A program made the position numbers and the translations under genes. 64,000 nucleotides of DNA from contig NZ_JADNRC010000002.1 of assembly GCF_015594725.1 (NCBI RefSeq), forward strand, positions 1 to 64,000, read 5' to 3'. Each line of letters opens with the position of its first letter. Position 1 is the stretch's first letter. The notes beneath the pieces are model-generated. The model was given only the letters and a program-made list of their open reading frames with translations, ran no database searches and was not told the DNA's origin. The DNA comes from Flavobacterium sp. ALJ2. GTDB taxonomy: Bacteria > Bacteroidota > Bacteroidia > Flavobacteriales > Flavobacteriaceae. Below are positions 116 through 31,670 of this stretch, one piece after another.

Positions 116-616
116 ATGAAACAATCATTACTTATTTTATTATTTTTAGCAACAAGTCTTACCTGGAGTCAATCGGGATCTGATTATTTTGACCAAGCTC
201 TAAGAAAAGCCCAAAACGGAAACACCAAAGGCGCAATACTAGACTACACTAAAGCTATTAAGCTAAAAGCAAACTTCACGGAGGCATACCAAAACAGAGG
301 TGTTGCCAAACTAAAACTAAATGACATAAAAGGTGCTCTTGCTGACTTTAATAAAACAATCGAATTAGACCCAATGAATGCTGATGCTTTTACTGGAAGA
401 GCTAATATAAACTACAAATTAAAAGACTTTCAAGCAGCTATTAAAGATTGTACTTCATCAATTGCTTTAAACCCCAAAGACTACATAGCTTACAACTTAA
501 GAGGTACTTGCTACACTCAAATTCAAGATAAAAAAAATGCTTGTAAAGATTTCACAAAGGCAATAGAATTAGGCAGTCAAAGCGCTAGTAAAAACAAAGC
601 TACTTTCTGCAAATAA
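116..616 (+). CDS. Exported tetratricopeptide repeat protein
   Basis: A 166-residue protein with a signal peptide (hydrophobic stretch about residues 4-16, ending near TWSQS) followed by about three to four TPR units. Visible repeat signatures are A-LDYTKAIKL, A-ADFNKTIELDP, A-KDCTSSIALNP and A-KDFTKAIELG, at roughly 34-residue spacing. TPR arrays are protein-docking scaffolds; here it should sit in the periplasm. No catalytic domain is attached, so its partner cannot be named. It stands alone between two strong terminators, so it is probably a single-gene transcript. Confidence 0.85.
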   Translation: MKQSLLILLFLATSLTWSQSGSDYFDQALRKAQNGNTKGAILDYTKAIKLKANFTEAYQNRGVAKLKLNDIKGALADFNKTIELDPMNADAFTGRANINYKLKDFQAAIKDCTSSIALNPKDYIAYNLRGTCYTQIQDKKNACKDFTKAIELGSQSASKNKATFCK

Positions 617-1754: not shown

Positions 1755-1790
1755 TAAATTTGTTTATCAAATATCAATTAATGATAAACA
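1755..1790 (+). promoter_or_regulatory. merR promoter and operator-like inverted repeat
   Basis: A -7 box TAAATTTG (1755-1762) is followed by the inverted repeat TGTTTATCA (1761-1769) and TGATAAACA (1782-1790), nine paired bases with a 12-nt gap. Written by its core it is GTTTA-N18-TAAAC (1762-1789). The right arm overlaps the ATG, so a bound dimer or tetramer would block transcription start. The same core with the same spacing recurs before crtI and before the SDR gene, which suggests autoregulation by the MerR protein. Confidence 0.6.
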
Positions 1791-2680
1791 ATATAAAAAG
1801 TGTCTTTAGTATAAAAGACCTTGAAAACCTTTCTGGAATTAAGGCACACACCATTCGCATTTGGGAAAAGAGATACAACATCCTTGAACCTATGCGTACC
1901 GAAACCAATATTCGTCTATATGACTTAGCTAGTTTACAAAAACTTCTAAACATTACGTTACTACATGAATATGGCTATAAGATCTCGAAGATAGCAACTT
2001 ATCCTCAAGAAAAAATTCCACAATTAGTTAGAGAAATCATTTCTAACAAAAATGCAAAAAATCACGCCATTAGTTCTTTCAAAATGGCAATGATGAATTT
2101 TGACCAAGAATCATTCTTTAATACATTTAATTGGTTGACTACTGAAAAATCTTTTAAAGAAGTTTTTCATCAAGTTTTCATTCCTCTATTAAATGAATTA
2201 GGTTTACTATGGCAATCTGAAACCATATCACCTGCACATGAACATTTTATAAGCAACTTAATTAAACAGAAACTGCACATAAATACAGAGAAATTACAAG
2301 TTCAAAAACCAACAAAAACAGATAGAATATATGTACTTTCCTTGCCAATGAATGAAATTCATGAACTAGGATTAATGTATATACAATACGAAATTCTTCT
2401 TCAAGGCTACAAAACAATTTATCTAGGTGAAAGTATGCCTATAGAAAACCTAAAAGAACTTAACAATCATTTTGACAATATCACTTTTGTTTCTTATCTA
2501 ACCATACAACCTGACCGTAATATTATCAATCAATATGTAAGCACTATGGGTTCGGAATTATTAAACAACTCCAATGAAATATGGCTAATTGGTAAAATGG
2601 TAGAGTACATTGAAACAGAAAATCTGAATCAAAAAATACATATTTTTAACTCCATTGAAGAATTAGTGATGCAGATATAA
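1781..2680 (+). CDS. MerR-family regulator with B12-binding photoreceptor domain (CarH/LitR type)
   Basis: 299 residues from the ATG at 1781. Residues 9-75 form a MerR winged helix (FSIKDLENLSGIKAHTIRIW, then RRYNILEP-like wing). Residues about 90-170 match the helical bundle and 185-295 the Rossmann B12-binding domain. The two CarH signature motifs are intact: W144-x9-E154-H155, where the His is the upper cobalamin ligand in CarH, and E192-x-H194-x-x-G197, the lower-ligand motif. In CarH/LitR proteins adenosylcobalamin bound in the dark drives tetramer repression of carotenoid genes and light breaks the Co-C bond. Its position directly before crtI supports the same job. Light sensing itself is inferred. 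Confidence 0.88.
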   Translation: MINNIKSVFSIKDLENLSGIKAHTIRIWEKRYNILEPMRTETNIRLYDLASLQKLLNITLLHEYGYKISKIATYPQEKIPQLVREIISNKNAKNHAISSFKMAMMNFDQESFFNTFNWLTTEKSFKEVFHQVFIPLLNELGLLWQSETISPAHEHFISNLIKQKLHINTEKLQVQKPTKTDRIYVLSLPMNEIHELGLMYIQYEILLQGYKTIYLGESMPIENLKELNNHFDNITFVSYLTIQPDRNIINQYVSTMGSELLNNSNEIWLIGKMVEYIETENLNQKIHIFNSIEELVMQI

Positions 2681-2684
2681 TTAT

Positions 2685-2718
2685 TTTGTTTAATTATTTC
2701 GTAATTTTGTTAAACAAA
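2685..2718 (+). promoter_or_regulatory. crtI promoter inside an operator-like inverted repeat
   Basis: A perfect -7 box TAATTTTG (2702-2709) lies between two arms of a nine-base inverted repeat, TTTGTTTAA (2685-2693) and TTAAACAAA (2710-2718). The core is GTTTA-N18-TAAAC, identical in sequence and spacing to the site at the merR start. The right arm runs into the crtI ATG, so the transcript would be nearly leaderless. No TTG sits at the ideal distance: the nearest, at 2686-2688, leaves only 13 nt. Confidence 0.65.
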
Positions 2719-4184
2719 TGAAAAAGACAATCTCAATTATAGGTTCTGGTTTTTCGGCTTTATCTGCTTCTTGTTATCTAGCCAAGCAAGGATATGACGT
2801 AACCATATATGAAAAAAATGCTACTATAGGCGGTAGAGCCAGACAACTAAAAAGCAATGGTTTCACATTCGATATGGGTCCAAGCTGGTACTGGATGCCC
2901 GATGTATTCGAAAATTTCTTTAATGACTTTAATAAAAAGACAACCGATTACTATGAGTTAATAAAACTTAATCCTGCCTATCGTGTTTATTTTGGAATTA
3001 ATGAATTTATAACTATCACTGATAATTTAGAAGAAATTGCTACAACCTTTGAATCTATTGAAAAAGGAAGCGGACAAAAACTCGTTGATCATATATCGCA
3101 AGCTAAAAGCAATTATGATATTGCCATAAAAAAATTAGTATATCGCCCAGGTGTTTCGGCATTAGAGTTGATAACTTTAGAAACCACCAAAAAACTGAAT
3201 CAGTTTTTTGGAACAGTCAGCAAAGATATTCGCAAGAAATTTAAAAATGATAAACTAATTCAAATTCTAGAATTTCCTGTTTTATTCCTTGGTGCAAAAC
3301 CATCCAACACTCCTTCTTTTTATAATTTTATGAATTATGCTGATTTTGGATTAGGAACATGGCATCCTAAAACTGGAATGTATGATGTTGTTCGTGGCAT
3401 CGAAAATCTTGCCGAAGAGCTTGGAGTCACATTTAAAATGAATTCTAACATTGATAAAATCATAGTAAAAAATAATATCGCAACTGCATTAATTATTAAT
3501 GACGAAATTATTGCATCGGATATAATTTTAAGTGGTGCTGATTACCAACATACCGAAACTTTATTAGACAAAGAGCATCGAGCCTATTCAGATTCCTATT
3601 GGGAAAGTCGCGTTTTTGCTCCTTCTTCTCTCCTATTTTATATTGGATTTGACAAAAAAATTCAAGACATTTCACATCACGCTTTATTCTTCGATGTCGA
3701 TTTCAACCAACATGCAATTGATATTTATGATAATCCCAAGTGGCCAGAAGCGCCTTTATTTTATGCCAACTTCCCATCAGTTACTGATAAAACAGCTGCT
3801 CCTTACGGAATGGAAAGTGGCTTTTTTTTAATTCCGCTTGCACCGGGGATAGAAGATACTGAAGCTTTACGGGAAGAATATTTCGATAAAATTATCACTC
3901 GCTTCGAAACTGTAACTCAACAATCTATTAAAAATAATATTATCTTTAAGAAGTCTTTTTGCAAAAATGACTTTATCGAAGATTACAATGCTTATAAAGG
4001 AAATGCATACGGAATGGCAAATACCCTATTACAAACTGCATTTTTGAGACCTAAACTAAAAAGTAAAAAAGTAAAAAACTTATACTTTACTGGACAATTA
4101 ACTGTTCCAGGACCTGGCGTGCCTCCTGCTTTGATATCAGGAAAACTAGTATCCGAATTAATAAACAAATCCTTTTCATCATAA
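2718..4184 (+). CDS. crtI: Phytoene desaturase
   Basis: 488 residues, the usual CrtI length. The N-terminus carries the FAD-binding dinucleotide fold (IIGSGFSALSASCYLAKQG, residues 7-25, then E at the end of the second strand), and GGRARQ follows. The C-terminus has the CrtI-family end motif (YFTGQLTVPGPGVPPALISG, about 457-476). The enzyme desaturates 15-cis-phytoene to lycopene at the membrane. crtB follows after 4 nt, so they are one operon, probably continuing through crtZ, the SRPBCC gene and the photolyase. Regulation by the upstream MerR protein is suggested by the inverted repeat over its promoter. Confidence 0.95.
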   Translation: MKKTISIIGSGFSALSASCYLAKQGYDVTIYEKNATIGGRARQLKSNGFTFDMGPSWYWMPDVFENFFNDFNKKTTDYYELIKLNPAYRVYFGINEFITITDNLEEIATTFESIEKGSGQKLVDHISQAKSNYDIAIKKLVYRPGVSALELITLETTKKLNQFFGTVSKDIRKKFKNDKLIQILEFPVLFLGAKPSNTPSFYNFMNYADFGLGTWHPKTGMYDVVRGIENLAEELGVTFKMNSNIDKIIVKNNIATALIINDEIIASDIILSGADYQHTETLLDKEHRAYSDSYWESRVFAPSSLLFYIGFDKKIQDISHHALFFDVDFNQHAIDIYDNPKWPEAPLFYANFPSVTDKTAAPYGMESGFFLIPLAPGIEDTEALREEYFDKIITRFETVTQQSIKNNIIFKKSFCKNDFIEDYNAYKGNAYGMANTLLQTAFLRPKLKSKKVKNLYFTGQLTVPGPGVPPALISGKLVSELINKSFSS

Positions 4185-4188: not shown

Positions 4189-5025
4189 ATGAAACAGCTA
4201 TTTGATAATGTCTCGTTTAAATGTAGCAAGCTAGTAACTCAAAGCTACAGTACTTCTTTCTCGTTAGCTGTATATATGTTAGCCCCGAGCATAAGGGATG
4301 CAATTTACAGTATTTATGGTTTTGTGCGTTTTGCCGATGAAATTGTAGATTCGTTTCATGGATTCGATAAAAAATATCTAATTGATGATTTTGAAAAAGA
4401 ATACTATAAAGCGATAGCAGCTGGTATAAGTCTTAATCCTATTTTAAATTCTTTTCAGCAAACTGTAAAACAATATAATATCACCGATGATTTAATTCAG
4501 TCTTTTTTAAAAAGCATGAAACTAGATTTAATCAAATCAGACTATAATGAGGAAGAAATTGAAGATTATATTTATGGTTCTGCTGATGTTGTAGGCTTAA
4601 TGTGTCTTAAAGTTTTTGTTTCTGGCAGTGATTCAAAATACGAAAAACTAAAAATGGAAGCAATGCGATTAGGTTCTGCTTTTCAAAAGGTGAATTTCTT
4701 AAGAGACTTAAAAGATGATAATCTAATTTTAAACCGAAACTATTTCCCTGGAATAGATTTAAACTCATTTGATGAAACTTCAAAAAACAAAATTATAGAA
4801 GAAATTGAAGAAGATTTTAAAATTGCCTATCAGGGAATTGTAAAACTTCCTGTAGAAGCTAAATTTGGTGTTTATACTGCTTATATATATTATAAAAAGC
4901 TTTTGAAGAAACTAGAAAACACCCCTTGTCACGAGATTGGCAATGAAAGAATTCGAGTCTCTAATTATTCTAAAGCAGGATTACTAGCAAAATCTTTCGT
5001 TTCTTATAAACTAAGAATGGTATAA
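4189..5025 (+). CDS. crtB: Phytoene synthase
   Basis: 278 residues of the squalene/phytoene synthase family. It condenses two geranylgeranyl diphosphates to phytoene. The two Mg2+-binding aspartate motifs are visible: D50-EIV-D54 in the first and D173-LKD-D177 in the second, the latter within QKVNFLRDLKDD. SYSTSFS near residue 20 is the family's flap segment. It lies 4 nt after crtI and supplies its substrate. The length is at the short end typical of Flavobacteria. Confidence 0.95.
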   Translation: MKQLFDNVSFKCSKLVTQSYSTSFSLAVYMLAPSIRDAIYSIYGFVRFADEIVDSFHGFDKKYLIDDFEKEYYKAIAAGISLNPILNSFQQTVKQYNITDDLIQSFLKSMKLDLIKSDYNEEEIEDYIYGSADVVGLMCLKVFVSGSDSKYEKLKMEAMRLGSAFQKVNFLRDLKDDNLILNRNYFPGIDLNSFDETSKNKIIEEIEEDFKIAYQGIVKLPVEAKFGVYTAYIYYKKLLKKLENTPCHEIGNERIRVSNYSKAGLLAKSFVSYKLRMV

Positions 5026-5044: not shown

Positions 5045-5485
5045 ATGATTTCCTTTTTAATTTTCATAGGCGTATTTCTTTTCATGGAATGTGTCACTTG
5101 GTGTACTCATAAATTTGTCATGCACGGTTTTATGTGGTATTTTCACTCTGATCATCACCAACCTAAATACACAAATGTATTTGAGCGAAATGACATTTTC
5201 TTTGTGATTTTTGCAATCCCGAGTATTTTACTATTCTATTTTGGAACTATAGATGGTATCAATTATTTGTTTTTTATTGGTTTGGGATTAACCTTTTACG
5301 GATTTTGTTATTTTATGGTTCATGATGTATTGATTCATCAACGCTTTAAATGGTTTAAAAACACTAAAAACAAATATCTTATCGGGTTAAGAAAAGCACA
5401 TAAAGTACACCATAAACACTTAGACAAGGAACATGGTGAGTGTTTTGGAATGTTGTTCGTGCCATTTAAATACTACAAATTCTAA
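5045..5485 (+). CDS. crtZ: Beta-carotene hydroxylase, CrtZ type
   Basis: 146 residues of the membrane di-iron fatty-acid hydroxylase superfamily. The histidine clusters are in family order: HKFVMH (about 23-28), HSDHH (about 35-39), HDVLIH (about 96-101) and HKVHHKH near 119-125. Hydrophobic helices lie near the N-terminus and at about 52-90. It would hydroxylate beta-carotene to zeaxanthin, the usual Flavobacterium pigment. The gene is 19 nt after crtB in the same operon. No lycopene cyclase gene is present in this cluster, although one is needed between CrtI and CrtZ. Confidence 0.92.
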   Translation: MISFLIFIGVFLFMECVTWCTHKFVMHGFMWYFHSDHHQPKYTNVFERNDIFFVIFAIPSILLFYFGTIDGINYLFFIGLGLTFYGFCYFMVHDVLIHQRFKWFKNTKNKYLIGLRKAHKVHHKHLDKEHGECFGMLFVPFKYYKF

Positions 5486-5494: not shown

Positions 5495-5956
5495 ATGAAA
5501 GTATATAAGAAAGAATCTATCCAGCATATCAATGCGAGTTTAGAAGAGTGCTGGGCTTTTTTTTCTAATCCAAAAAACCTGCAAGTAATCACTCCTAAGT
5601 CAATGGGCTTTGAGGTTACCGATTATGATGACAAATTAATGTATGCTGGACAAATCATTCAATATAAAATCACTCCACTTTTAGGAATCAAATTAAGTTG
5701 GATGACTGAAATTACTGTAGTAAAAGAAAATAGCTATTTTATAGATGAGCAACGTTTTGGTCCGTATACTTTATGGCATCATAAACATTTTTTTGAAGCT
5801 ACTTCTAATGGGACTCAAATGACTGATATTGTACATTATGCACTTCCGCTAGGTTTTATAGGTCGCATCATGAATGCACTTGTTGTGAGAAATGAACTGA
5901 AAACAATTTTTGAATACCGCCATAAAAAGGTTGAAGAAATTTTTAATACTAAATAA
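5495..5956 (+). CDS. SRPBCC (START/Bet v1-like) family protein
   Basis: 153 residues. The opening IQHINASLEECWAFFSNPKN is the typical start of the cyclase/dehydrase-like SRPBCC fold, with a hydrophobic ligand cavity expected. ITPKSMGF and the closing helix (about 130-150) also fit. Its ligand is unknown. It sits between crtZ and the photolyase and overlaps the photolyase start by one base, so it is translated in the same operon. SRPBCC genes next to photolyases are common in light-responsive clusters of other bacteria, but no activity is established. Confidence 0.85.
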   Translation: MKVYKKESIQHINASLEECWAFFSNPKNLQVITPKSMGFEVTDYDDKLMYAGQIIQYKITPLLGIKLSWMTEITVVKENSYFIDEQRFGPYTLWHHKHFFEATSNGTQMTDIVHYALPLGFIGRIMNALVVRNELKTIFEYRHKKVEEIFNTK

Positions 5957-7251
5957 TGGGCAAACAAAAAGTTACACTTTTTTGGTTTCGACGTGATCTG
6001 CGTTTGGATGATAATCGGGGATTGTTTCATGCTCTTGAATCTGATTTTCTAGTTATTCCTTTGTTTATTTTTGATGAGGCAATTCTTGAGAGCTTGCCTA
6101 AAAACGATTCAAGAGTGAGTTTTATATACGATTCTCTAGAGAAAATCAATACTGAATTGAATACTATTGGAAGTTCTCTTTTAATTAAAAAAGGAGAAAC
6201 TAATAAAATCTGGAAATCTCTCATCGAAGAATTCGATATTCAAGAAGTGTTTTTTAATAAAGATTATGAGCCTTATGCTATAAAAAGAGATTTTACAATC
6301 TCTAATTTGTTAAGGCTAAATAATATTACAGCACATCTATATAAAGATCATGTGCTATTTGAAGAAAAAGAAATTACAAAATCGGACGGCTTACCATATA
6401 CCATATATACTCCTTATAAGAATAAATGGCTTGAAAAATATAAAGTTCTAGGTCAAGCCAAAGAATATAATACTACTAAGCTTTTTCCAAATTTTTATAA
6501 AAGTGTATTTGAATTCCCGACAATAAACCAAATTGGGTTTGAAAAAAGTACTATTAAAGTACAACCTCATAATTTAAAAAACATTACGAATTATCAAGAA
6601 ACAAGGGATTTTCCTGCGTTAGATTCAACCTCTTATCTTTCGCCTCATTTGCGTTTTGGTACTGTTAGTATCCGAAAATTAGTAAATTGGGCAGCAAATA
6701 CAAATCAGGTTTTCTTGAGTGAATTAATATGGAGGGAATTTTTTATCCAGATATTATTTAGTTTCCCGAATGTGGTTAACCATAATTTTAAATCGGCATA
6801 CGATGGAATTCAATGGTTAAATAACGAGAAGGATTTTCTGCGTTGGTGCTCTGGAACTACGGGCTATCCTATGGTGGATGCAGGTATGCGTCAACTTAAT
6901 GAAACTGGATATATGCATAATCGAGTTCGAATGGTTGTTGCCAGTTTTTTATGCAAACATTTATTGATTAGTTGGCAATGGGGCGAAGCCTATTTTGCGG
7001 AGAAATTACTTGATTACGAATTGGCTTCGAATGTTGGTAATTGGCAATGGGCTGCAGGAACGGGCTGTGATGCTGCTCCTTATTTTAGAGTTTTTAATCC
7101 CGAAATTCAACTTAAGAAGTTTGATGAAAAAGGTATTTACATCCGAAAATGGATTCCTGAGTTTGACTTGGGTTATAATCAACCCATGATTGACCATGCT
7201 TTTGCAAGAGATCGTGCTATTGCGACTTATAAAGCGGGGATTCTGAGATAG
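5956..7251 (+). CDS. phrB: Deoxyribodipyrimidine photolyase (cryptochrome/photolyase family)
   Basis: 431 residues. The N-terminal antenna domain begins LFWFRRDLRLDDN (about 9-21), and the C-terminal FAD domain contains SELIWREFFIQ, TGYPMVDAGMRQL, GYMHNRVRMVVASFL and NWQWAAGTGCDAAPYFRVFNP. These are the class I photolyase FAD-binding and electron-transfer tryptophan regions. It repairs cyclobutane pyrimidine dimers using blue light. Its ATG overlaps the SRPBCC stop (TAATG). Being the last gene of the carotenoid operon, it would be switched on with pigments under light. Confidence 0.93.
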   Translation: MGKQKVTLFWFRRDLRLDDNRGLFHALESDFLVIPLFIFDEAILESLPKNDSRVSFIYDSLEKINTELNTIGSSLLIKKGETNKIWKSLIEEFDIQEVFFNKDYEPYAIKRDFTISNLLRLNNITAHLYKDHVLFEEKEITKSDGLPYTIYTPYKNKWLEKYKVLGQAKEYNTTKLFPNFYKSVFEFPTINQIGFEKSTIKVQPHNLKNITNYQETRDFPALDSTSYLSPHLRFGTVSIRKLVNWAANTNQVFLSELIWREFFIQILFSFPNVVNHNFKSAYDGIQWLNNEKDFLRWCSGTTGYPMVDAGMRQLNETGYMHNRVRMVVASFLCKHLLISWQWGEAYFAEKLLDYELASNVGNWQWAAGTGCDAAPYFRVFNPEIQLKKFDEKGIYIRKWIPEFDLGYNQPMIDHAFARDRAIATYKAGILR

Positions 7252-7332: not shown

Positions 7333-7428
7333 TCTAGCCCAGATAGGAACGGCACCCTTTTGTGGTGGTGTTCACTACAAGAGATATAATGTCCCGATAG
7401 CTATCGGGAAGCTGGATGTAGCTCCCTA
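7333..7428 (+). repeat. Interspersed structured repeat, copy A
   Basis: About 95 nt sharing the frame TAGCCC-n-GATAG-n-A-n-CGGCA-n-CCTTTT ... AGATATA ... GATAGC ... TAGCTCC with a second copy at 23355-23435. Between the two conserved halves is a hairpin, CTTTTGTGGTG pairing with CACTACAAGAG, whose sequence differs wholly from the hairpin in copy B. A perfect palindrome CCCGATAGCTATCGGG lies at 7393-7408. It sits between convergent genes. It may be a small RNA, a shared terminator or a non-autonomous element. Confidence 0.6.
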
Positions 7429-8730
7429 ATATTTCTGATAATTATTTACTTGAATTTTAGCTTTCAAATCGAACATTAAATTATATAATCCAAAAAAGGT
7501 TCTATTCATATATATAAAATGTTTCGAACCACGGTTTCCATTCATTTTTTTTAGATTCGTATCTTTAGAAAAACGCTCCCCCAATTGTCCTATACTATCA
7601 AAAAAAGCCTCATCAGAAAAATCAAATGTATCGGACTGAAATGGTTTTGTAAATAATGACAATAAATCATGGAACATTCCTGTAAAATATTCTATCTCTT
7701 CTTTGGTATCATCTTTTCTTAGAATTTCTAATTCAAAAAGTTTCTCATTAAAAAGCTTTTCATCAGTTATCACTTCTTTATTGATTAACTCAAAATAAGG
7801 AACATAAAAATCATTTGGAATTTGTTTCATACATCCAAAATCTAAAGCTACTAACTGTTTTTTATCGTTTACCAAGAAATTTCCAGGATGTGGATCAGCA
7901 TGAACTTTTCGTAAAATATGAATTTGATACATGTAAAAATCCCAAAGTGCTTGCCCGATAACATCCGATTCCTCTTGATTGGGCTTCTTCGCAGTATATT
8001 CTGAAAGATGAATCCCAGTCATCCAATCCATAGTAATGATTTTCTCTGAAGAAAAGGCTGGATAATAATTCGGAAAAACCAGGTTTTCTATCTTTTTACA
8101 AGCTTCGACAACTTCTTGACTTTGCTGTAATTCCAATAAATAGTTTGTTTCTTCTATTAACTTATCTTCAACTTCTTTAAAATATTTATCTGAATCTTTT
8201 CCTTGCAGATTAAACATTCTTATTGCCATGGGTTTTACCAAAGCCAAATCAGAAGAAATACTATTAGCAACTCCTGGATACTGAATTTTTACGGCTAGTT
8301 GTTTACCATCTTTTACAGCTAAATGTACCTGACCGATACTTGCTGCATTTACAGAATTGGGATTAAACTCATCAAAAATTTCATATGGTGTTTTACCAAA
8401 ATTAGTTTTAAAGGTTTTTAATACTAATGGTGCAGAAAGTGGCGGAACTGAAAATTGTGACAATGAAAATTTTTCGACATAGGCTTGTGGCAAGAAATTC
8501 TTGTCCATACTTAACATCTGTGCCACTTTAAGCGCACTTCCTTTTAAGCTTTTAAGTCCGTCGTAGATGTCTTCGGCATTATTTTCGTTTAATTTATCGC
8601 GGGTTATGTCTGGATTTACAATTTTCTCACCGTAATATTTTAAATAATTCACTCCTATTTTTGCTCCTGTTTGAACTAATTTGCTCGCCCTTTCAATTTT
8701 AGAAGTCGGGATATAGTCGATAGTTTTCAT
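7426..8730 (-). CDS. ABC1/AarF (UbiB/ADCK-like) atypical kinase
   Basis: 434 residues of the ABC1 kinase family. Landmarks in order: the KxGQ-like motif as KVAQMLSM (about 68-75), the alanine-rich loop AASIGQVH (about 130-137), the lysine strand LAVKIQYPG, the catalytic loop VHADPHPGNFLV (about 276-287) and the metal-binding DFG (about 299-301). These proteins act on isoprenoid quinone or lipid metabolism in many organisms; the substrate here is unknown. It overlaps the upstream TetR gene by 4 nt (ATGA), so the two are translationally coupled. Confidence 0.88.
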   Translation of the reverse strand: MKTIDYIPTSKIERASKLVQTGAKIGVNYLKYYGEKIVNPDITRDKLNENNAEDIYDGLKSLKGSALKVAQMLSMDKNFLPQAYVEKFSLSQFSVPPLSAPLVLKTFKTNFGKTPYEIFDEFNPNSVNAASIGQVHLAVKDGKQLAVKIQYPGVANSISSDLALVKPMAIRMFNLQGKDSDKYFKEVEDKLIEETNYLLELQQSQEVVEACKKIENLVFPNYYPAFSSEKIITMDWMTGIHLSEYTAKKPNQEESDVIGQALWDFYMYQIHILRKVHADPHPGNFLVNDKKQLVALDFGCMKQIPNDFYVPYFELINKEVITDEKLFNEKLFELEILRKDDTKEEIEYFTGMFHDLLSLFTKPFQSDTFDFSDEAFFDSIGQLGERFSKDTNLKKMNGNRGSKHFIYMNRTFFGLYNLMFDLKAKIQVNNYQKY

Positions 8731-9389
8731 TGTTTGCTGTATATTTTTTCTTTAAAAATAAATTTACCAAAATCTAGTAAATGATTCATTGGCGCTACAT
8801 TCATCAATTCAAAAGAAACATTTACAGACTTTTCGATAAAAATATCTGTTTTTTCAAAAGCTGGTGAGGCATCGTCTACCCAAAATTTAAGGGTAAGTAA
8901 AAGCTGCATCCACGCTGTTTCCTGAATTGCTTTTTCCTGAAAATTTTGAAGTTTCTCTTGTTGAACTCGAAAATCATCGGTTATGATTAGGCTAATATAT
9001 TTCTTAAAACTATCACGAAGTGTGGTTAGTTTTGCCAAGTTTTTTATCGGATTCGAGTAACTTTTCAAAGCTTGAACAACATAACTACGGTTTGCAGTTA
9101 GCAATTCGAAAAAAGTAAAATAAAAACTAAGCATTTTATTCTTCATATCATATTCATGATACTCTGGATTTTTATCTAATAATTCAACTGTGTTTTCAAA
9201 AAAAAGATTGAAAATTTCTTTCTCTAATCCTTCAAATGTTCCAAAAAAAGTGTAAAATTCGGATTCTTCAAAATCATTTTCTTTAGCAAAATGGAAAATC
9301 GATTTTGGATTTTGCCCATGTTCTAAAACGTAATTCATATACAAAGAAACAATTTTATCTTTTGTCAATATTTCTTTTTTAGTTTCCAT
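8727..9389 (-). CDS. TetR-family transcriptional regulator
   Basis: 220 residues. The N-terminal 60 residues form a TetR helix-turn-helix (IVSLYMNYVLEHG, then SIFHFAKENDFEESEFYTFFGTFE interrupted only by the turn, then LEKEIFNLFF). The rest is an all-helical ligand domain of the Bacteroidota type. It is the first gene of a two-gene operon with the ABC1 kinase, and divergent from the SDR gene. The shared 99-bp intergenic region contains a GTTTA-N18-TAAAC site. Its ligand is unknown. Confidence 0.8.
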   Translation of the reverse strand: METKKEILTKDKIVSLYMNYVLEHGQNPKSIFHFAKENDFEESEFYTFFGTFEGLEKEIFNLFFENTVELLDKNPEYHEYDMKNKMLSFYFTFFELLTANRSYVVQALKSYSNPIKNLAKLTTLRDSFKKYISLIITDDFRVQQEKLQNFQEKAIQETAWMQLLLTLKFWVDDASPAFEKTDIFIEKSVNVSFELMNVAPMNHLLDFGKFIFKEKIYSKQ

Positions 9390-23268: not shown

Positions 23269-23354
23269 ATGATTATTTATTTAATCGTTTAATTGAATTC
23301 GATAGCAAATCTTACCTGTTTATTTCAACCTTGCAGGATAGCTCTCGTGATTCA

Positions 23355-23435
23355 TAGCCCTGATAGTAGCGGCATCCTTTTATTTTTTTCCTTTAAAAAA
23401 ATAAAAGATATAGCGGATAGCAAGATTAGCTCCTG
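23355..23435 (+). repeat. Interspersed structured repeat, copy B
   Basis: Shares with copy A (7333-7428) the blocks TAGCCC-n-GATAG, CGGCA-n-CCTTTT, AGATATA, GATAGC and TAGCTCC in the same order and orientation. The central hairpin here is a 13-bp stem, CTTTTATTTTTTT with AAAAAAATAAAAG, while in copy A it has different, GC-richer arms. Both copies lie between convergent genes, here trmL and btuD. Function unknown. Confidence 0.6.
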
Positions 23436-23440: not shown

Positions 23441-24217
23441 CTAAGTAATTACAAACTTTCCTTTTTCGGCATCAAAAGTAATATGATCGTCTTTGAATAA
23501 TGTGGCAAAACTTCCTGTTGCAATTAAGTTACAAGGTTCATCCTGTATAAAAGCTTCGGGTGTCATTATAATCATTTCGTCACTTAGCTGAATTGCCAAA
23601 TCGATGTCATGCGTAGAAAACAAAATACATTTTCCCGTTTCATGTGTTAGTTTTTTCAATAATTTAAACAAAGCTACTTTGTGTAATAAATCTAGATGTG
23701 TTGTAGGTTCATCCAGAATAATAAGCGGCGTATCTTGTGCTAAGGCTCGTGCAATTAATACTTTTTGTAATTGTCCATCACTTATTTCATAATGCTTTTT
23801 ATGAGCCAAATGGCTTATTTGGGTAAGCTCCAATGCCTCATTTACTTTAGTGATATCATAGTTTGTCAAAGTCCCAATCCAGTTTGTGTAAGGTTGGCGT
23901 CCTAAAGCCACTAACTCAAAAACAGATAAATTACTTGGCGGTAGTTTTTCGGTTAAAACAATGCTTAGATTCTGAGCTAAATCCAGTGATTTATATTCAA
24001 ATATATTCTTATCATTTAGCAAAACTGTTCCTGATAATGGATGTTGAATCCCTGTAATTGTTCGTAATAAAGTCGATTTCCCTATTCCGTTAGCTCCAAT
24101 TAAAGCAATAAGCTTACCTGGTTCTAAATTCAGATTTAAATTTTGAGCAATAGTCACACTCGTTTTATTGGTCTTGTAACCAATACTTAAGTTTGAAGTT
24201 TGGAGAATTGTTTTCAT
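23441..24217 (-). CDS. btuD: ABC transporter ATPase, cobalamin/corrinoid import (BtuD-like)
   Basis: 258 residues. Walker A is ALIGANGIGKSTLLRTI (about 36-52), the signature is ISDGQLQKVLIARAL (about 135-149) and Walker B is LIILDEPTTHLD (about 156-167), followed by the switch His in FSTHD. It belongs to the FecE/BtuD class that pairs with FecCD-type permeases. It would energise import of corrinoids with btuC and btuF, which lie upstream on the same strand but are separated from it by a 311-bp relic element. Iron-siderophore import is possible on family grounds; the neighbours favour B12. Confidence 0.85.
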   Translation of the reverse strand: MKTILQTSNLSIGYKTNKTSVTIAQNLNLNLEPGKLIALIGANGIGKSTLLRTITGIQHPLSGTVLLNDKNIFEYKSLDLAQNLSIVLTEKLPPSNLSVFELVALGRQPYTNWIGTLTNYDITKVNEALELTQISHLAHKKHYEISDGQLQKVLIARALAQDTPLIILDEPTTHLDLLHKVALFKLLKKLTHETGKCILFSTHDIDLAIQLSDEMIIMTPEAFIQDEPCNLIATGSFATLFKDDHITFDAEKGKFVIT

Positions 24218-24236
24218 TGCGATTTTTTTAAACACG

Positions 24237-24490
24237 TAGAAACATAGGTTTCTTTCTTTTATTAAAGAATTTTAATTAAAATTTACTTGTAAATTAAAAC
24301 ATAGTAACAAGCCGATTACTGTTTTGGCAATAGACTAAAATATTCATTTACAAATGTTTTTTGACCATCTTTAAAAATATTAAAACAATTAAAATTGATT
24401 ATAATTCCTTTTGGAGCTTTCAATAGTTTCATATAAGTTAAAAGTAGAGTAATCATTAATTCTTTAATTAAAACAAAAACTATGTTTCTA
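24237..24490. repeat. Imperfect inverted-repeat pair enclosing a gene relic
   Basis: The ends are TAGAAACATAG (24237-24247) and its exact complement CTATGTTTCTA (24480-24490). Further inside, ATTAAAGAATT also recurs in inverted form (AATTCTTTAAT near 24457-24467), so the imperfect arms are about 40 nt. The 254-bp unit lies between btuC and btuD and contains a GxxExxY gene fragment. It looks like a mobile or recombination-prone cassette. Confidence 0.5.
24316..24456 (-). pseudogene. C-terminal remnant of a GxxExxY family protein
   Basis: A 46-codon reading frame gives MITLLLTYMKLLKAPKG then IIINFNCFNIFKDGQKTFVN and a short tail ending in a stop. This matches the conserved C-terminal end of GxxExxY proteins (PD-(D/E)XK-like fold), whose pattern is LLTYxKL...GxxINFN...xDGxxxxVN. 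The GxxExxY box and nuclease-like core are missing upstream, so this is a truncated relic. The family is multi-copy in Flavobacterium genomes and its function is unknown. Confidence 0.65.
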
Positions 24491-24528
24491 TACATTAAAA
24501 AAACAAGATACTAAATATTTGTAAGTTT

Positions 24529-25557
24529 TTACTCAAAATTTCTTTTTCGAACTAATAACCAAATAACTACTGGTGCTCCAATTATAGATGTTATTGCATT
24601 AATAGGCAATGTCGTTTCTAATCCTGGTAATTGTGATGCAATGTCGCAAAACAGCATAATTATTCCTCCATAAAAAAGGGTACTCCAATATAAAACAGCG
24701 TGATTACTAGTTCTAAAGGTAAGCTTTGCAATATGCGGAACGGCTAGCCCTATAAAAGCAATTGGTCCTGCAAAGGCCGTAACACTTCCTGCCAAAATAC
24801 TTGTGGCAAGAATAATTATAAATCTTGTTTTCTTAAAATTAAGTCCCATGCTTTTTGCATAATTCTCTCCCAGAAGCAATGCATTTAATGGTTTGATACT
24901 AAAAGCACTTAAAAGCAAGCCAAAACTAACACTTACTGCTAAAACAATAATCGAAGACCAGGAAAGATTCCCTAGACTCCCTAATGACCAAAAAGTGAAT
25001 TTCTGTAATTGTTCTGCCGAACTAAAATAGGTTAAAACTCCAACAATCGCACTGGTAAAACTACCAAACATTAGCCCGACGATTAAAATAGCCATTGTAT
25101 TACGCAACCGTTGTGATACTAATAAAACCAGTAATAAAACCGAAATACTACCTAATGTTGATGCTAATACAAGTCCGTAACTCGACAGCAAAATTCCTTG
25201 TAGAAATGAAGGCAATAAACCAGCTCCTAAAATTACAATCGCTACTGCTAATATTGCTCCGGAACTTAATCCTAAAACATCAGGACCTGCTAATGGATTT
25301 CTGAATAACGTTTGCATTAGCAATCCACTTATTGATAATCCTACACCTACTAATACCGCAGTAATTGCTTTGGGCAAACGGTAATTAATTATGATATATT
25401 CCCATGTTGATTTGCTTGCTTCTCCTCCTGTTAAACTAGTATAAACTTCTTTAAATGGAATGGTTATCGACCCTAAACTAATATCCAAAAAGAATAGTAA
25501 CAAAAGGGCTAAACCGAGTATAAAAAACAAGATCGTATTTCGCTTTTGATTCGCCAA
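24529..25557 (-). CDS. btuC: ABC transporter permease, FecCD/BtuC family
   Basis: 342 residues with about ten membrane helices. The family blocks are RLPKAITAVLVGVGLSISGL (about 55-74), QTLFRNPLAGPDVLG (about 76-90) and the coupling region GPIAFIGLAVPHIAK (about 264-278). It forms the inner-membrane channel of a B12-type importer. It starts 6 nt after btuF ends. Specificity for cobalamin rather than siderophore is inferred from the cobalamin genes nearby. Confidence 0.87.
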   Translation of the reverse strand: MANQKRNTILFFILGLALLLLFFLDISLGSITIPFKEVYTSLTGGEASKSTWEYIIINYRLPKAITAVLVGVGLSISGLLMQTLFRNPLAGPDVLGLSSGAILAVAIVILGAGLLPSFLQGILLSSYGLVLASTLGSISVLLLVLLVSQRLRNTMAILIVGLMFGSFTSAIVGVLTYFSSAEQLQKFTFWSLGSLGNLSWSSIIVLAVSVSFGLLLSAFSIKPLNALLLGENYAKSMGLNFKKTRFIIILATSILAGSVTAFAGPIAFIGLAVPHIAKLTFRTSNHAVLYWSTLFYGGIIMLFCDIASQLPGLETTLPINAITSIIGAPVVIWLLVRKRNFE

Positions 25558-25563
25558 TTGATA

Positions 25564-26706
25564 TTAATTTAATTTAGATACAAATGTAAATTCATAACTA
25601 GGCAATAACTCAGGATGAAATATCTTGATGTAATCTTTAAGAACTAAATCTGGGCGGCTTGGTGCCAATTCATAATAAACTGTTCCCCCTGTTGCTCCAA
25701 ATTTACTCTCGAAAGTATATACGTTTTTTGTTTTAAAAGCATCAAACTGGCTGTAATGTGGGTTGCTTTTTTCTAATTCTGATAATGATTTAAAAGAACC
25801 TGTTGCAATCCAGACTGAAGCTGTTTTGGCTTTGTCTAATATTTTCTCAAATGATAATCCCAGGCTTCCAGTTCCTTCAAGATTCGCCCATAAATAATCG
25901 GCTTTGGCATCGGCCATAAATTGCGCCACCCAACTATTTCCTTTGGCAACATACCATTGATCCATATACATTGAACCGTATAATACTGTTGAAGTTGCTT
26001 TCTTGGTTGCTACTAGTTTTTTAGCTTCGTTATAACTGGTTACGATTTTATCAAAAAGTTCTTTTGCTTGTGCTTCTTTGCCAAATAATGCTCCGTATAG
26101 CTTAATCCACTCCGCTTTCCCTAATGGGGATTGCTCCATCCAATCGGCTTGAATAAGTACTTTTAACCCGCTTTTTTGTAAATTATCTAACATCGGGTTG
26201 TTATTATCAACTCCAAAAGTGACAATTAAATTTGGTGATAATTCAATAAGTTGTTCGATATTTAATTTTTCGTTTTGACCAACATTCTTAACGGAACCTT
26301 TGTCAATTAATTTTCTGGTTTTTTCAGATGAAATATAGTCGGTATGCGGAAAACCTACCAAGTTATTTTCGACATCTAACATTTCTAAAAACGGAATATT
26401 AGTTGTTGATGTTACTACAATTGTTTGTAACGGAACCTGAATTGCAGTATAGCTTTTTAAACTATCTGGCACAACTCCATCTTTTTCTTTTAATACATAC
26501 GTATAATCTTTTCCTGCATCTGGCCAAGGGTTTGTAACTTTTACAATAGTGTAACCTGTAAATTTATTGATAGATAGTCCCGAAGCATATTCGATACTAT
26601 TTTGTCCTGTTTCGGCTTTTATTTCTGGAGTACTTTCGTTTTTCTTGCATCCTATTAATACTAAAAAAGAGAAAAGAAAAACAACTTTATATAATGATGG
26701 CTTCAT
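25564..26706 (-). CDS. btuF: Periplasmic corrinoid-binding lipoprotein, BtuF-like
   Basis: 380 residues of the class III (TroA/BtuF) binding-protein fold. A lipoprotein signal ends LVLIGCKKN (Cys about 20). Conserved parts are IVVTSTTNIPFLEML, NVGQNEKLNIEQLIELSPNL, VLYGSMYMDQWYV and the closing FHPELLPSYEFTFV. It is first in a btuF-btuC transcript and would hand a corrinoid to the permease. A minus-strand -7 box TACCTTTG lies at 26728-26735. No riboswitch precedes it. Confidence 0.83.
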   Translation of the reverse strand: MKPSLYKVVFLFSFLVLIGCKKNESTPEIKAETGQNSIEYASGLSINKFTGYTIVKVTNPWPDAGKDYTYVLKEKDGVVPDSLKSYTAIQVPLQTIVVTSTTNIPFLEMLDVENNLVGFPHTDYISSEKTRKLIDKGSVKNVGQNEKLNIEQLIELSPNLIVTFGVDNNNPMLDNLQKSGLKVLIQADWMEQSPLGKAEWIKLYGALFGKEAQAKELFDKIVTSYNEAKKLVATKKATSTVLYGSMYMDQWYVAKGNSWVAQFMADAKADYLWANLEGTGSLGLSFEKILDKAKTASVWIATGSFKSLSELEKSNPHYSQFDAFKTKNVYTFESKFGATGGTVYYELAPSRPDLVLKDYIKIFHPELLPSYEFTFVSKLN

Positions 26707-27415: not shown

Positions 27416-27928
27416 ATGGTTTACTTGATTACTGGTGGCGAACGTTCGGGGAAAAGTGGTTATGCACAAGAACTGGCTTTACAACTTACAAATGCGCCAA
27501 TGTATGTGGCTACGGCTCGAAAATGGGACGAAGATTTCCAGAACCGAATAGACAGACACCAACAAGAACGTGACGAACGCTGGACGAATATTGAAAAGGA
27601 AAAATACTTGAGCGAAATTGATTTTTCGGGCAAAGTGGCTTTGATAGATTGTGTAACGCTTTGGTTAACAAACTTTTTTGTTGATACTAAAAACGATGTT
27701 GCATTATCTCTTGAAGAAGCTAAAGCTGAATTTTTAAAAATAGTCAATCAGCCAGAAGCAACTTTGATAATTGTCACTAACGAAATTGGAATGGGACTTC
27801 ATGCTGACACACATGTAGGAAGAAAATTCACAGAATTACAAGGCTGGATGAATCAGTTTCTAGCTAAAAATGCCGATACTGTAGTTTTGATGGTTTCAGG
27901 AATTCCGGTTACTATAAAAGGAAAATAA
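27416..27928 (+). CDS. cobU: Adenosylcobinamide kinase/guanylyltransferase
   Basis: 170 residues. Walker A is ITGGERSGKSGYAQ (about 5-18), the guanylylated histidine lies in NRIDRHQQERDERW (about 42-55), and VALIDCVTLWLTN and IIVTNEIGMGLHAD follow, all CobU landmarks. It phosphorylates adenosylcobinamide and converts it to adenosylcobinamide-GDP. It heads the group cobU, bluB-cobT, cobS, cobC. Three tandem copies of ATTAAAA lie in its leader. Confidence 0.93.
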   Translation: MVYLITGGERSGKSGYAQELALQLTNAPMYVATARKWDEDFQNRIDRHQQERDERWTNIEKEKYLSEIDFSGKVALIDCVTLWLTNFFVDTKNDVALSLEEAKAEFLKIVNQPEATLIIVTNEIGMGLHADTHVGRKFTELQGWMNQFLAKNADTVVLMVSGIPVTIKGK

Positions 27929-27985
27929 TAGCTGAGAGCTTTGGGCTTTGAGTCTCGAGTTTTGAACCTTAAAAAAGAAAAAAAT

Positions 27986-29665
27986 ATGAGTTATTTAGAT
28001 GATATATTAAAATCACGCCGCGATACACGCCATTTTACAAATGATGAAGTTCCTGACGAAGTTATCCAGAAGGCTTTGCAGGCGGGACATTGGGCGCCTT
28101 CGGTGGGTTTAACAGATGCAACTAAATACTACATCATAAAATCGGATGAAGTTAAAAAAGCTATCAAAGATTTATTTTTGGATTATAATAAAAAAGCCGA
28201 ATCATTAACGGATGACGAGGAGCAAAAAGAACGTTATAAATCCTTGAAACTAGAAGCTATTGAAGAAGCGCCTATTGGGATGATAATTGCTTATGATCGC
28301 TCGGTACTAAATAACTTTACTATAGGGACAGTTGGCAGTAATGAAGCTGTAAAATTCAGTTCGGTTTGCGCTGCGCAAAATATCTGGTTGTCACTTACTG
28401 AGCAAGGTTATGGAATGGGGTGGGTTTCTATTTTAAATTATTATCAGTTCAAGAAAATAATTGATTTACCCGAAAACATTGAGCCGCTTGGTTATTTCTG
28501 TATTGGAAAACCTGCAACAAATTATGATAATCAGCCAATGTTGCAACAATTGAACTGGAAACAGAAATCGGAAACTTATGAGTGTACCGAAATCAAAACC
28601 ATAACTGAGAGCTTTGTTTCGAAAGTAGATTTTGAAAACAAACCTAAAGCTGAATCTTCAACTTCTTTTAGTGAAGCACTTCAACATAAAATCGACTCGA
28701 AAACTAAACCTCTTGGCGCTTTAGGTATTTTAGAAAAATTAGCATTCCAAATAGGAACTGTTTTTCAAACTCTAAATCCTGAGGTTATAAAACCTAATAT
28801 AGTTGTTTTTGCAGCTGATCACGGCATTGCCAATCATGGTGTGAGTGCATATCCGCAAGACGTTACCCGACAAATGGTTGGCAATTTCCTTGCAGGTGGC
28901 GCAGCAATTAATGTGTTTTGTAAGCAAAATAAAATTGAACTTTCTATTGTAGATGCTGGTGTAAATTATGATTTCCCTACAAATGCGAATTTAATTAATG
29001 CTAAAATTGCCAGAGGAACTCAATCCTTTTTGCATGTTCCTGCAATGAGTGAAACCGAATTGCAATTGTGCTTTTTAAAAGGTTCTGAAATTGTAGATTC
29101 TATTGCAAAGACTGGAAGTAATTGCATTGGATTTGGCGAAATGGGAATCGGAAACACATCGACGGCTTCAGTTTTGATGAGTATTTTAACTGGTTTTTCT
29201 ATTGAAGAATGTGTTGGAAAAGGAACTGGAGTTGATGATAAGAAACTAATCGAGAAGCAGGAAATCCTTAAAAAAGCTATCGAAAATTATTCTGGTCAAA
29301 CCGAATTAAAAGAACAACTCGCCTATTTTGGAGGTTTTGAAATTATGCAAATGGCTGGTGGAATGTTAGCCGCTTACAAAAACAATATGCTTATTCTTAT
29401 AGATGGCTTTATTTGTACTGTCGCTTTTTTAATTGCTTATAAAATAAATCCAAACATTAAGAAGAATGCAATTTTCTGTCATTCTTCGGCTGAACAAGCA
29501 CATCAAAAACTATTAGATTATCTTGAAGCCAAATCGGTTTTGCAACTTGATTTACGCTTAGGCGAAGGAACGGGCTGCGCAATTGCTTTACCTATATTAC
29601 AATCGGCTATTGCTTTCCTGAACGAAATGGCTACTTTTGAAAATTCTGGGGTAAGTAATAAATAG
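27986..29665 (+). CDS. Fusion of BluB (DMB synthase) and CobT (phosphoribosyltransferase)
   Basis: 559 residues from ATG 27986. Residues 1-195 are BluB (SRRDTRHFTNDEVPDEVI, AGHWAPSVGLTDATKYYII, SLTEQGYGMGWVSI), which destroys reduced FMN to make 5,6-dimethylbenzimidazole. Residues 225-555 are CobT: KPLGALGILE (241-250), VVFAADHGIANHGVSAYP (273-290), FGEMGIGNTSTAS (383-395) and the catalytic Glu527 in RLGEGTGCAIALP. CobT attaches ribose phosphate to the base to give alpha-ribazole phosphate. One protein thus makes and activates the lower ligand. Confidence 0.92.
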   Translation: MSYLDDILKSRRDTRHFTNDEVPDEVIQKALQAGHWAPSVGLTDATKYYIIKSDEVKKAIKDLFLDYNKKAESLTDDEEQKERYKSLKLEAIEEAPIGMIIAYDRSVLNNFTIGTVGSNEAVKFSSVCAAQNIWLSLTEQGYGMGWVSILNYYQFKKIIDLPENIEPLGYFCIGKPATNYDNQPMLQQLNWKQKSETYECTEIKTITESFVSKVDFENKPKAESSTSFSEALQHKIDSKTKPLGALGILEKLAFQIGTVFQTLNPEVIKPNIVVFAADHGIANHGVSAYPQDVTRQMVGNFLAGGAAINVFCKQNKIELSIVDAGVNYDFPTNANLINAKIARGTQSFLHVPAMSETELQLCFLKGSEIVDSIAKTGSNCIGFGEMGIGNTSTASVLMSILTGFSIEECVGKGTGVDDKKLIEKQEILKKAIENYSGQTELKEQLAYFGGFEIMQMAGGMLAAYKNNMLILIDGFICTVAFLIAYKINPNIKKNAIFCHSSAEQAHQKLLDYLEAKSVLQLDLRLGEGTGCAIALPILQSAIAFLNEMATFENSGVSNK

Positions 29666-29686: not shown

Positions 29687-30126
29687 ATGCCATTTATAAA
29701 AGTATATATACATTTAATTTGGAGTACTAAAAATGGAATTGCCTATTTAGATTCAGTAGAATTGCGCCGAAAAGTTTGGCAACATATAAGAGATAATGCA
29801 AAAGAGAAAGGAATTTATATAGATTTCATAAATGGATATTCAGACCATTGTCATTGTCTTATTTCATTAGGTGTTTACCAAAACATCCAAAAAGTAATAC
29901 AGTTACTAAAAGGAGAATCCTCATTTTGGATTAATAAAAATAAATTGACTAAAAAAAATTTGAATGGCAAGATGAATATTTTGCTATATCAGTTTCTGAG
30001 TCAATTGTCGATAAAGTAAGAGAGTATATTAAAAACCAAGAAATACATCATACTAAAAAAACATTTCAGGAAGAATATGAAGAATTTATTCTCAAATATG
30101 GTTTTCAGAAAATAAATAATAAATAA
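29687..30126 (+). pseudogene. REP-associated tyrosine transposase (Y1/IS200-like), frameshifted
   Basis: The first frame (29687-30019) encodes VYIHLIWSTKNG and the HUH-type box DHCHCLISL. After an A8 run at 29951-29958 the reading continues in the -1 frame as KFEWQDEYFAISVSESIVDK, then VREYIKNQEIHH with the catalytic Tyr, and stops at 30124-30126. One lost A separates the metal-binding histidines from the nucleophilic tyrosine. Either the gene is dead or full product comes from slippage at A8. It splits the cobalamin operon and is followed by four palindromes. Confidence 0.85.
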
Positions 30127-30257: not shown

Positions 30258-31055
30258 ATGAAAAAGCAACTCCATATATTTTTTACTGCATTAATGTTCT
30301 ACACAAGGATTCCTTGTCCTAAAAACATAGACCATAATCCTGATTATCTTAATAAAGCCAGTCGCTATTTTCCATTGATTGGTTGGATTGTTGGAGGAAT
30401 TTCTTTTTTGGCATTTTATGGCGCTTCTTTTTTAGTTTCAACTGCAGCATCTGTAATTATAAGCATGATTGCTGGAATTTTAACCACAGGTGCTTTTCAC
30501 GAGGATGGATTTGCTGATGTTTGCGATGGCTTTGGCGGAGGCTGGACCAAAGAAAAAATCCTATTGATAATGAAAGATAGTGCCATTGGTGCCTATGGAG
30601 CTATTGGTGTAGTACTGTTATTTTTATTGAAGTTTCAATTACTTTCAGAATTAGTAACGACAGAAACAATTACAAGTCAGCAACCAATATTGAACATTCT
30701 TCTGTTCTTTATCGCTGGACATTCCATAAGTCGTTTGGCAGCAATAAGCATTGTATTTACACATGAATATTCTCGTGAAGATGCTTCAAGCAAAAGTAAA
30801 CCTATTGCAAAAAGTTTTAGTTGGAAAGAAGTTTTGGGTTCTTTCTTCTTTGGTTTATTACCTCTTCTAATCCTTTCTTGTTTTCAATATCAACTACTTT
30901 TAGTTATAATCCCTGTTTTTCTGGCGCGTTACTTTCTGGCACGTTATTTCCAAAAATGGATTGACGGTTATACTGGAGATTGTTTAGGCGCGACTCAACA
31001 AGTTTGCGAAGTTATATTTTACTTAAGTGTTATAGGCATATGGAAATTTATTTAG
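30258..31055 (+). CDS. cobS: Adenosylcobinamide-GDP ribazoletransferase (cobalamin synthase)
   Basis: 265 residues, mostly membrane helices. CobS blocks are ALMFYTRIPCP (about 12-22), YFPLIGWIVGG, TGAFHEDGFADVCDGFGGGW (about 76-95), KDSAIGAYGAIGVVLLFLLK and GYTGDCLGATQQ (about 239-250). It joins alpha-ribazole phosphate to adenosylcobinamide-GDP at the inner membrane, the last chain-building step of B12 assembly. cobC overlaps its end by 16 nt. Confidence 0.94.
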   Translation: MKKQLHIFFTALMFYTRIPCPKNIDHNPDYLNKASRYFPLIGWIVGGISFLAFYGASFLVSTAASVIISMIAGILTTGAFHEDGFADVCDGFGGGWTKEKILLIMKDSAIGAYGAIGVVLLFLLKFQLLSELVTTETITSQQPILNILLFFIAGHSISRLAAISIVFTHEYSREDASSKSKPIAKSFSWKEVLGSFFFGLLPLLILSCFQYQLLLVIIPVFLARYFLARYFQKWIDGYTGDCLGATQQVCEVIFYLSVIGIWKFI

Positions 31056-31576
31056 TCCGCCATACCGAAACTGTTTGCGAAAAAGGAATTTGCTACGGTC
31101 AAACCGATGTAAACATTGTAGAACCTTACGATTTGATATTTGAAAACATTGCACAACAATTACCACAAGATGCGTTGTTATATTCGAGTCCATTGAAACG
31201 TTGTGTACTACTCGCCAAACATATTCAGAAAAAAAACAAAATTTTAAATTACCAAGAAGACAAGCGGTTAATGGAAATGAATTTTGGCGATTGGGAAATG
31301 AAAAATTGGAACGAAATTTCTCATGAAGATTTAAATCCTTGGATGGAAGATTTCGTAAACATTCGTGTTCCAAACGGAGAATCTTTTATCGATTTACATG
31401 AAAGAGTCACTCATTTTATGAAAAACAAACTACTTACAAAAACTTCACAAAAGCTAATCATTGTGGCACATGCCGGAGTTATAAGAAGTATTTTATGCCT
31501 CTTAAATTCTCTTCCCTTAAAAGATGCTTTCCAAAACAAAGTCGATTTTGGACAAGTAATAAAAGTCGAAATCTAA
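31040..31576 (+). CDS. cobC: Alpha-ribazole phosphatase, histidine phosphatase family
   Basis: 178 residues starting at the ATG 31040 (MEIYLVRHTE), inside the cobS 3' end. The phospho-histidine motif is LVRHTE (5-10). GICYGQTDVN is the CobC-type segment, with SSPLKRCVLLA and the second active-site His in IIVAHAGVI (about 139-147). It removes the 5'-phosphate from alpha-ribazole phosphate or adenosylcobalamin phosphate. An upstream in-frame start at 30980 is rejected as it buries 20 residues in cobS. Confidence 0.87.
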   Translation: MEIYLVRHTETVCEKGICYGQTDVNIVEPYDLIFENIAQQLPQDALLYSSPLKRCVLLAKHIQKKNKILNYQEDKRLMEMNFGDWEMKNWNEISHEDLNPWMEDFVNIRVPNGESFIDLHERVTHFMKNKLLTKTSQKLIIVAHAGVIRSILCLLNSLPLKDAFQNKVDFGQVIKVEI

Positions 31577-31660: not shown

Positions 31661-31670
31661 CACCCACATT

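Follow-up and report, generated by a model that had tools for sequence, protein, structure and literature searches.

A predicted B12-dependent CarH-type repressor and its candidate operator at the carotenoid-photolyase genes of Flavobacterium

The window, a stretch of 64,000 nucleotides from Flavobacterium sp. ALJ2, encodes a protein which is best explained as a Flavobacterium-wide variant of the class I LitR/CarH photoreceptors, its photoreceptor role being predicted. It has the fold and the cobalamin motifs of this family, it heads an operon of carotenoid and photolyase genes, the candidate operator in front of crtI is conserved and tied to the presence of carH, and B12 genes are found in the same window. 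From these observations we infer B12 binding, a light response, operator occupancy and repression; the best reading is a repressor that acts in the dark, depends on B12 and governs a photo-oxidative-stress regulon, and we regard it as highly probable. New are the candidate operator, the candidate regulon and the genus-wide CarH variant without His132; the altered light-trigger residue, the likely set of target genes and the operator appear not to have been described before. A search of the open literature revealed no papers testing a Flavobacterium CarH, although subscription papers may exist, and for the light-induced carotenoids of Chryseobacterium lacus a CarA/LitR-like regulator was merely guessed (PMC7064467).

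Fold, conserved motifs and replaced residues of CarH

Pfam searches with the CarH sequence detected MerR_1 (PF13411; 1.2e-13) and the B12-binding_2 cap (1.4e-9), and revealed no match to the B12-binding Rossmann model. Among proteins of solved structure, the Thermus LitR/CarH proteins are closest in sequence. With 80 bits the score for the NCBIfam CarH equivalog is far below its cut-off of 400, so that the protein is a distant member of the family. The MerR winged helix contains the RxWExRY recognition helix, and RIWEKR is invariant in 80/80 Flavobacterium homologues. An AlphaFold2 (AF2) model built from 38 Flavobacterium sequences reached a mean pLDDT of 80.5, mostly above 85 in the Rossmann part and weaker in the loops on the cofactor side (54 for residues 141-150, 76 for residues 191-200). 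Its top structural match was the cobalamin-binding domain of Thermus CarH (Z 18.4, rmsd 2.9 Å, 191 residues), followed by photocobilin (Z 17.8), CtMerR (17.1) and methionine synthase (14.9); the model thus displays the cobalamin-binding-domain fold of CarH / class I LitR proteins. No second CarH was found in the genome.

The first-pass annotation had described an open reading frame with both cobalamin motifs, and the residues it named lie exactly where it placed them. The adenosyl-contact motif Wx9EH (W144-x9-E154-H155) and the lower-ligand motif D/E-x-H-x2-G (E192-I-H194-E-L-G197) are both intact. All six residues (W144, E154, H155, E192, H194, G197) are invariant in 80/80 Flavobacterium homologues, and W144, E154, H155 and H194 are kept in 47, 45, 45 and 44 of 47 wider homologues, the exceptions being two Cytophagales plasmid proteins and one Flavobacteriales protein; because of this conservation the motifs are not a product of chance. 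According to the published rule, CarH is distinguished from the B12-independent CarA by an intact Wx9EH together with a His lower-ligand motif (PMC9304148), and the window protein has both. A CarA-like MerR repressor working without B12, for which the low identity to Thermus thermophilus CarH (TtCarH; 22%) and the divergent dimer contacts and GG would speak, is very unlikely, since this rule classes the protein as CarH and genes for B12 salvage and adenosylation are present. The Flavobacteriales exception (L044; G049:C1:1646412-1655206) keeps W-x9-EH and has its axial His replaced by Asn (SEFNEL); its gene adjoins crtI, crtB and folE, and the protein offers a naturally occurring case for testing B12 independence.

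The protein had also been called a complete CarH. This is too strong, as none of the Thermus features His132, Arg176-Asp201, Gly160 and GG is retained. The His132 position is occupied by Gln145, with Gln in 79/80 Flavobacterium homologues. Ile193 and Ser218 stand in place of the Arg176-Asp201 salt bridge of the Thermus dimer, and Gln173 in place of Gly160, so that of the two interface glycines of the Thermus subtype only G209 is kept. The GG of Thermus CarH corresponds to Gly271-Lys272, and genus-wide to Gly followed mostly by Arg or Lys. At the S-x-T/V position S238-Y-L is found, and TtCarH itself has S-A-L; the remaining, accessory part of the classic B12 motif (S-x-T/V, GG) is therefore not preserved. 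Three of the four elements of the SignatureFinder signature (GxxW, EH, GxxH, GxxxP; PMC11796333) are present; in the place of GxxH stands N191-E-I-H194, and the Gly of this element reportedly acts via its main chain (PMC11796333).

In the Thermus subtype, His132 clamps the cobalt in the light as upper ligand of a bis-His state, and the TtCarH H132A variant mostly stays tetrameric in the light (PMC10442372). With Gln145 at this position the bis-His adduct is impossible as light state. His132 is not universal among CarH photoreceptors: CtMerR, with Arg at this position, still monomerises in the light, its motif Glu turning towards the cobalt via water, whereas SasPcob, with Gln, showed an unchanged oligomer state in SEC-MALS (PMC11796333). 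A CarH which binds B12 but lacks the light switch, acting as a sensor of B12 availability or staying bound after photolysis while light input enters elsewhere, would agree with the prevalence of Gln, with the H132A variant and with SasPcob; we consider it unlikely, given the invariance of E154/H155 and of Trp144, which stacks on the adenosyl group, the behaviour of CtMerR and the photo-oxidative content of the candidate regulon described below.

The presence of carH is the rule in the genus and, being near-ubiquitous, unremarkable as such. It was detected in 32/37 Flavobacterium genomes examined when strong matches were counted and weak MerR matches left out, and 470 contigs in public genomes encode a relative; plasmid records hold distant relatives only. 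With the CarH of F. frigoritolerans the window protein shares 98% identity, and with the one of F. hydatis 93%, which bears out the earlier description of the genome as Flavobacterium-like. The earlier interpretation hence named the right family and probably the right role, but for a protein which is neither complete in the Thermus sense nor unusual in its occurrence.

Operon and candidate operator

Downstream of carH, the genes crtI-crtB-crtZ-SRPBCC-photolyase follow one another almost without gaps (Table 1). The order crtI, crtB, crtZ and photolyase had been recognised before, but the SRPBCC-like gene had been omitted. Searches of Pfam and NCBIfam revealed no match for this gene, nor, at 1e-3, for the crtZ-like gene. 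A heterodimer-type lycopene cyclase (TIGR03462) was not found in this genome; some relatives carry one between crtZ and SRPBCC. An inward-rectifier-type potassium channel gene (743-1705) lies directly upstream of carH, and several relatives have the same neighbour. Seven other genomes carry a second folE, together with genes for an SDR and a DUF2867 protein, beside the crt-photolyase cluster, and in two loci (L041 and L044) folE lies inside the carH-crtI-crtB cluster.

Table 1. Positions of genes and elements in the window
Feature	Position	Strand	Basis and remarks
Weaker operator-like site over carH promoter/start codon	1759-1793	-	TTTGTTTATC...GATAAACAA
carH (CarH/LitR-family regulator)	1781-2680	+	ATG start, 299 aa; Pfam/NCBIfam/PDB matches, AF2 model, motif conservation
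carH domains	residues ~9-74; ~90-173; ~180-299		MerR-type DNA-binding; cobalamin-binding: four-helix cap; Rossmann
Candidate CarH operator	2684-2718	+	TTTTGTTTAA-N12-TTTGTTAAACAAA; 35 bp, overlaps -7 box and crtI start region
crtI -7 box	2702-2709		TAATTTTG; overlapped by candidate operator
crtI (phytoene desaturase, NCBIfam CrtID)	2718-4184	+	NF058655, E 1.3e-218
crtB (phytoene synthase)	4189-5025	+	PF00494, E 9.6e-37
crtZ-like carotene hydroxylase	5045-5485	+	His-box motifs HKFVMH, HSDHH, HKVHH, by eye
SRPBCC-like protein	5495-5956	+	named by eye; homologues directly behind 4 operator sites elsewhere
DNA photolyase (phr)	5956-7251	+	PF03441 3.1e-73, PF00875 2.8e-38
ABC1-family kinase-like protein, conserved neighbour	7426-8730	-	PF03109; synteny
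TetR_C_23 regulator, conserved neighbour	8727-9389	-	PF17931; operator at its promoter in some relatives
Candidate B12 ABC importer (ATPase, FecCD permease, periplasmic binding protein)	23441-26706	-	Pfam
cobU	27416-27928	+	PF02283 5.9e-54
bluB-cobT fusion (DMB synthase and phosphoribosyltransferase)	27941-29665	+	TIGR02476, TIGR03160 above cut-off
cobS	30258-31055	+	PF02654 1.2e-55
cobC-like phosphatase	31043-31576	+	PF00300
Cobalamin riboswitch	31655-31879	+	RF00174, 86.1 bits (gathering 31.5)
TonB-dependent B12 receptor (btuB-like)	31908-33761	+	TIGR01779 7.7e-28, below cut-off; directly behind riboswitch

The gap between carH and crtI measures 37 bp and ends in TTTTGTTTAATTATTTCGTAATTTTGTTAAACAAATG; a candidate operator, TTGTTTAA-N12-TTTGTTAAACAA, is positioned over the crtI -7 box. 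Its half-sites TGTTTA and TGTTAA are 21 bp apart; the upstream one lies 13 bp from the -7 box and the second one overlaps this box, which in Flavobacterium has the sequence TAnnTTTG at -12 to -5 (PMC9723704). A repressor bound to the element would cover both promoter and start. Read on the lower strand, the half-sites TTAACA and TAAACA fit the CarH element TnnACA (PMC9304148), as expected of a CarH-type operator; the middle 11-bp repeat of the Thermus/Bacillus operators is not conserved in the Flavobacterium element. A position weight matrix (PWM) made from 29 distinct sites of relatives, with the window's own site left out, gave this site a score of 37.0, compared with 14.6 for the best of about 5,300 shuffled promoters, and the exact element occurs a single time in the 4.36-Mb genome. 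A mere -33/-7 promoter was ruled out as explanation by the 13-bp distance and by the rarity and gene specificity of the exact element. Should the -7 box occupy -12 to -5, the leader of the crtI mRNA would be about 4 nt long and the transcript nearly leaderless (region 2702-2720); leaderless mRNAs are uncommon in the genus (5.5%; PMC9723704).

The site at the carH start scored 17.6, second-best in the window, its conservation being partly confounded with the coding sequence; autoregulation of carH via this candidate site is possible. A search for weak extra sites in this genome with a two-mismatch pattern of fixed spacing gave matches at or near control level and was discarded. As candidate operators in this genome we put forward no more than the site at crtI and the weaker one at carH.

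Across the genus, the operator was found at crtI in 73/80 named Flavobacterium loci, and the half-site spacing was exactly 21 in 64/64 anchored sites. In 27/32 carH loci of the same genus the PWM gives a site in front of carH or crtI that outscores all shuffles, and where crtI lacks a site carH often has one (L015, L021, L022, L029). A search of 150 Flavobacterium genomes detected 121 exact matches in 88 genomes versus 0 for the reversed pattern. No exact match occurred in the near-complete carH-less genomes G018, G020, G022 and G027 or in the carH-less G040 and G053; four of these six encode CrtID (G022, G027, G040, G053), with no exact site anywhere in the genome, and in G027, G040 and G053 crtI is preceded by a different kind of upstream region, one without the element. 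Where carH is unlinked (G033), crtI stands in another setting, again without the element upstream. One assembly, 89% complete, holds an operator (G003:C56:8160-8191) and no carH was found in it; crtI is seen there solely as an end fragment on a short contig, and carH may be unassembled.

This tie to the presence of carH makes CarH the likeliest binder of the candidate operator; the TetR protein encoded nearby is a real competitor. Read as the inverted repeat TTGTTTAA/TTAAACAA, the element could be bound by another dimeric regulator, its middle 11-bp repeat is not conserved, and it precedes TetR-ABC1 in three genomes, the TetR gene being a conserved neighbour; nevertheless, some genomes have it at the carH gene, it is missing wherever carH is missing, it is found at carH-crtI in G009, G011 and G013 with no TetR gene in the 14-17 kb read, and its TnnACA half-sites fit CarH. 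That the element belongs to another regulator such as TetR_C_23, with CarH acting elsewhere or jointly, is therefore improbable in our estimation.

Candidate regulon, B12 supply and proposed mechanism

The DNA downstream of 112 distinct operator sites was read for the gene directly behind the site. This gene was crtI at 51 sites, folE at 20, a fasciclin lipoprotein gene at 10, carH and msrA at 6 each, a flavin-reductase-like gene at 5 (and at one more on the opposite side, in G003), SRPBCC at 4, TetR-ABC1 at 3, and a CHRD lipoprotein, an SDR and a DUF2805/TIGR03643 protein gene at one each; together about 109/112 sites precede genes of these types, and three could be assigned to no gene family. 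In three relatives read further, msrA is followed by folE (one-mismatch sites). Fasciclin-domain lipoproteins with a CarH-type operator occur in about 10 genomes (L056, L063, L070 and others), and for such adhesin-like proteins there is no obvious reason for light control.

The light regulon of class II LitR in Pseudomonas includes photolyase and folE (PMC9758184). Since a coherent set of target genes of this kind would be hard to explain otherwise, the element probably serves a light or photo-oxidative response, and judging from the positions of the sites CarH seems to govern a wider photo-oxidative-stress regulon across the genus, including folE, msrA, SRPBCC, flavin-reductase-like and fasciclin genes. 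We somewhat favour the full extent of this proposal, namely a genus-wide, B12-gated regulon in which crtI, folE, msrA, SRPBCC, flavin-reductase-like and fasciclin genes stand behind the newly defined operator, under a His132-less CarH whose light-state chemistry and oligomer interface would differ from those of Thermus.

A locus for B12 uptake and salvage with a cobalamin riboswitch spans 23.4-34.8 kb of the window, 21-32 kb from carH. The B12 specificity of its ABC importer is suggested by the neighbouring cob genes and the riboswitch. A Flavo-1 RNA (RF01705, 70.9 bits; 23352-23431) adjoins the candidate importer genes, and a short transposase-like ORF (29687-30019; by eye, of the IS200/REP-associated type) lies between cobT and cobS. 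Many relatives have the riboswitch within about 7-35 kb of carH. The genome also encodes a PduO-type adenosyltransferase (C1:159356-159868) and the B12-dependent methionine synthase MetH, and F. psychrophilum is reported to scavenge cobamides rather than make them de novo (PMC9723704). The B12 genes are near-universal in the group; they permit B12 sensing and do not single out carH. With the promoter-overlapping operator candidate, the coherent regulon, the salvage locus and the adenosyltransferase, the control of pigment and photolyase genes by CarH proposed in the first-pass annotation is now better supported.

In the preferred reading of CarH as a B12-dependent dark repressor, the salvage locus at 23.4-34.8 kb would supply cobalamin, to which the PduO-type enzyme encoded elsewhere in the genome would add the adenosyl group. 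In the dark, CarH with adenosylcobalamin would sit on the 35-bp operator and repress crtI-crtB-crtZ-SRPBCC-phr, and would weakly repress its own gene. Green, blue or UV light would cleave the Co-C bond, whereupon the oligomer would fall apart, CarH would be released and the operon transcribed, so that pigment and photolyase could be made; the light state would probably be held by water/Glu154, as reported for CtMerR. Without B12 the operon would be on regardless of light.

Comparison with known CarH and LitR systems

Work on CarH proteins has so far drawn on Thermus, Bacillus, Myxobacteria and a few other sources. Flavobacteria are abundant, are often exposed to sunlight and for the most part scavenge B12, and the genus has working genetics; with a defined operator and a target list, light/B12 control of pigment in Flavobacterium becomes directly testable. 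A natural CarH without His132 also bears on the current argument as to whether a light response requires the bis-His switch.

The window CarH resembles Thermus thermophilus CarH/LitR (PDB 5C8A/5C8D/5C8E/5C8F, 8C31) in domain order and fold (Z 18.4), has equivalents of its Trp131, Glu141, His142 and His177, and likewise adjoins carotenoid and photolyase genes. In contrast, the two proteins share only 22% identity and differ at His132 (Gln145), Arg176/Asp201 (Ile193/Ser218), Gly160 (Gln173) and GG (Gly-Lys), and the operator is here AT-rich, with half-sites 21-22 bp apart and without a conserved middle repeat. CtMerR of Chloracidobacterium (PDB 8JBS/8JBT) is, like the window protein, a CarH-type photoreceptor fold without His132 (Z 17.1); it has Arg where the window CarH has Gln, and identity is 13%. 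With Myxococcus CarH/CarA the window protein shares the Wx9EH rule for CarH (CarA lacks the Trp; PMC9304148) and the repression of a crt operon, which is predicted here, whereas this genome has a single CarH and the operator sequence differs. The Pseudomonas class II LitR proteins PplR/PmlR count photolyase and folE among their targets (PMC9758184), as does the candidate Flavobacterium regulon; class II proteins, however, are held not to bind B12, work with LOV proteins and use the operator TGTACA-N12-TGTACA.
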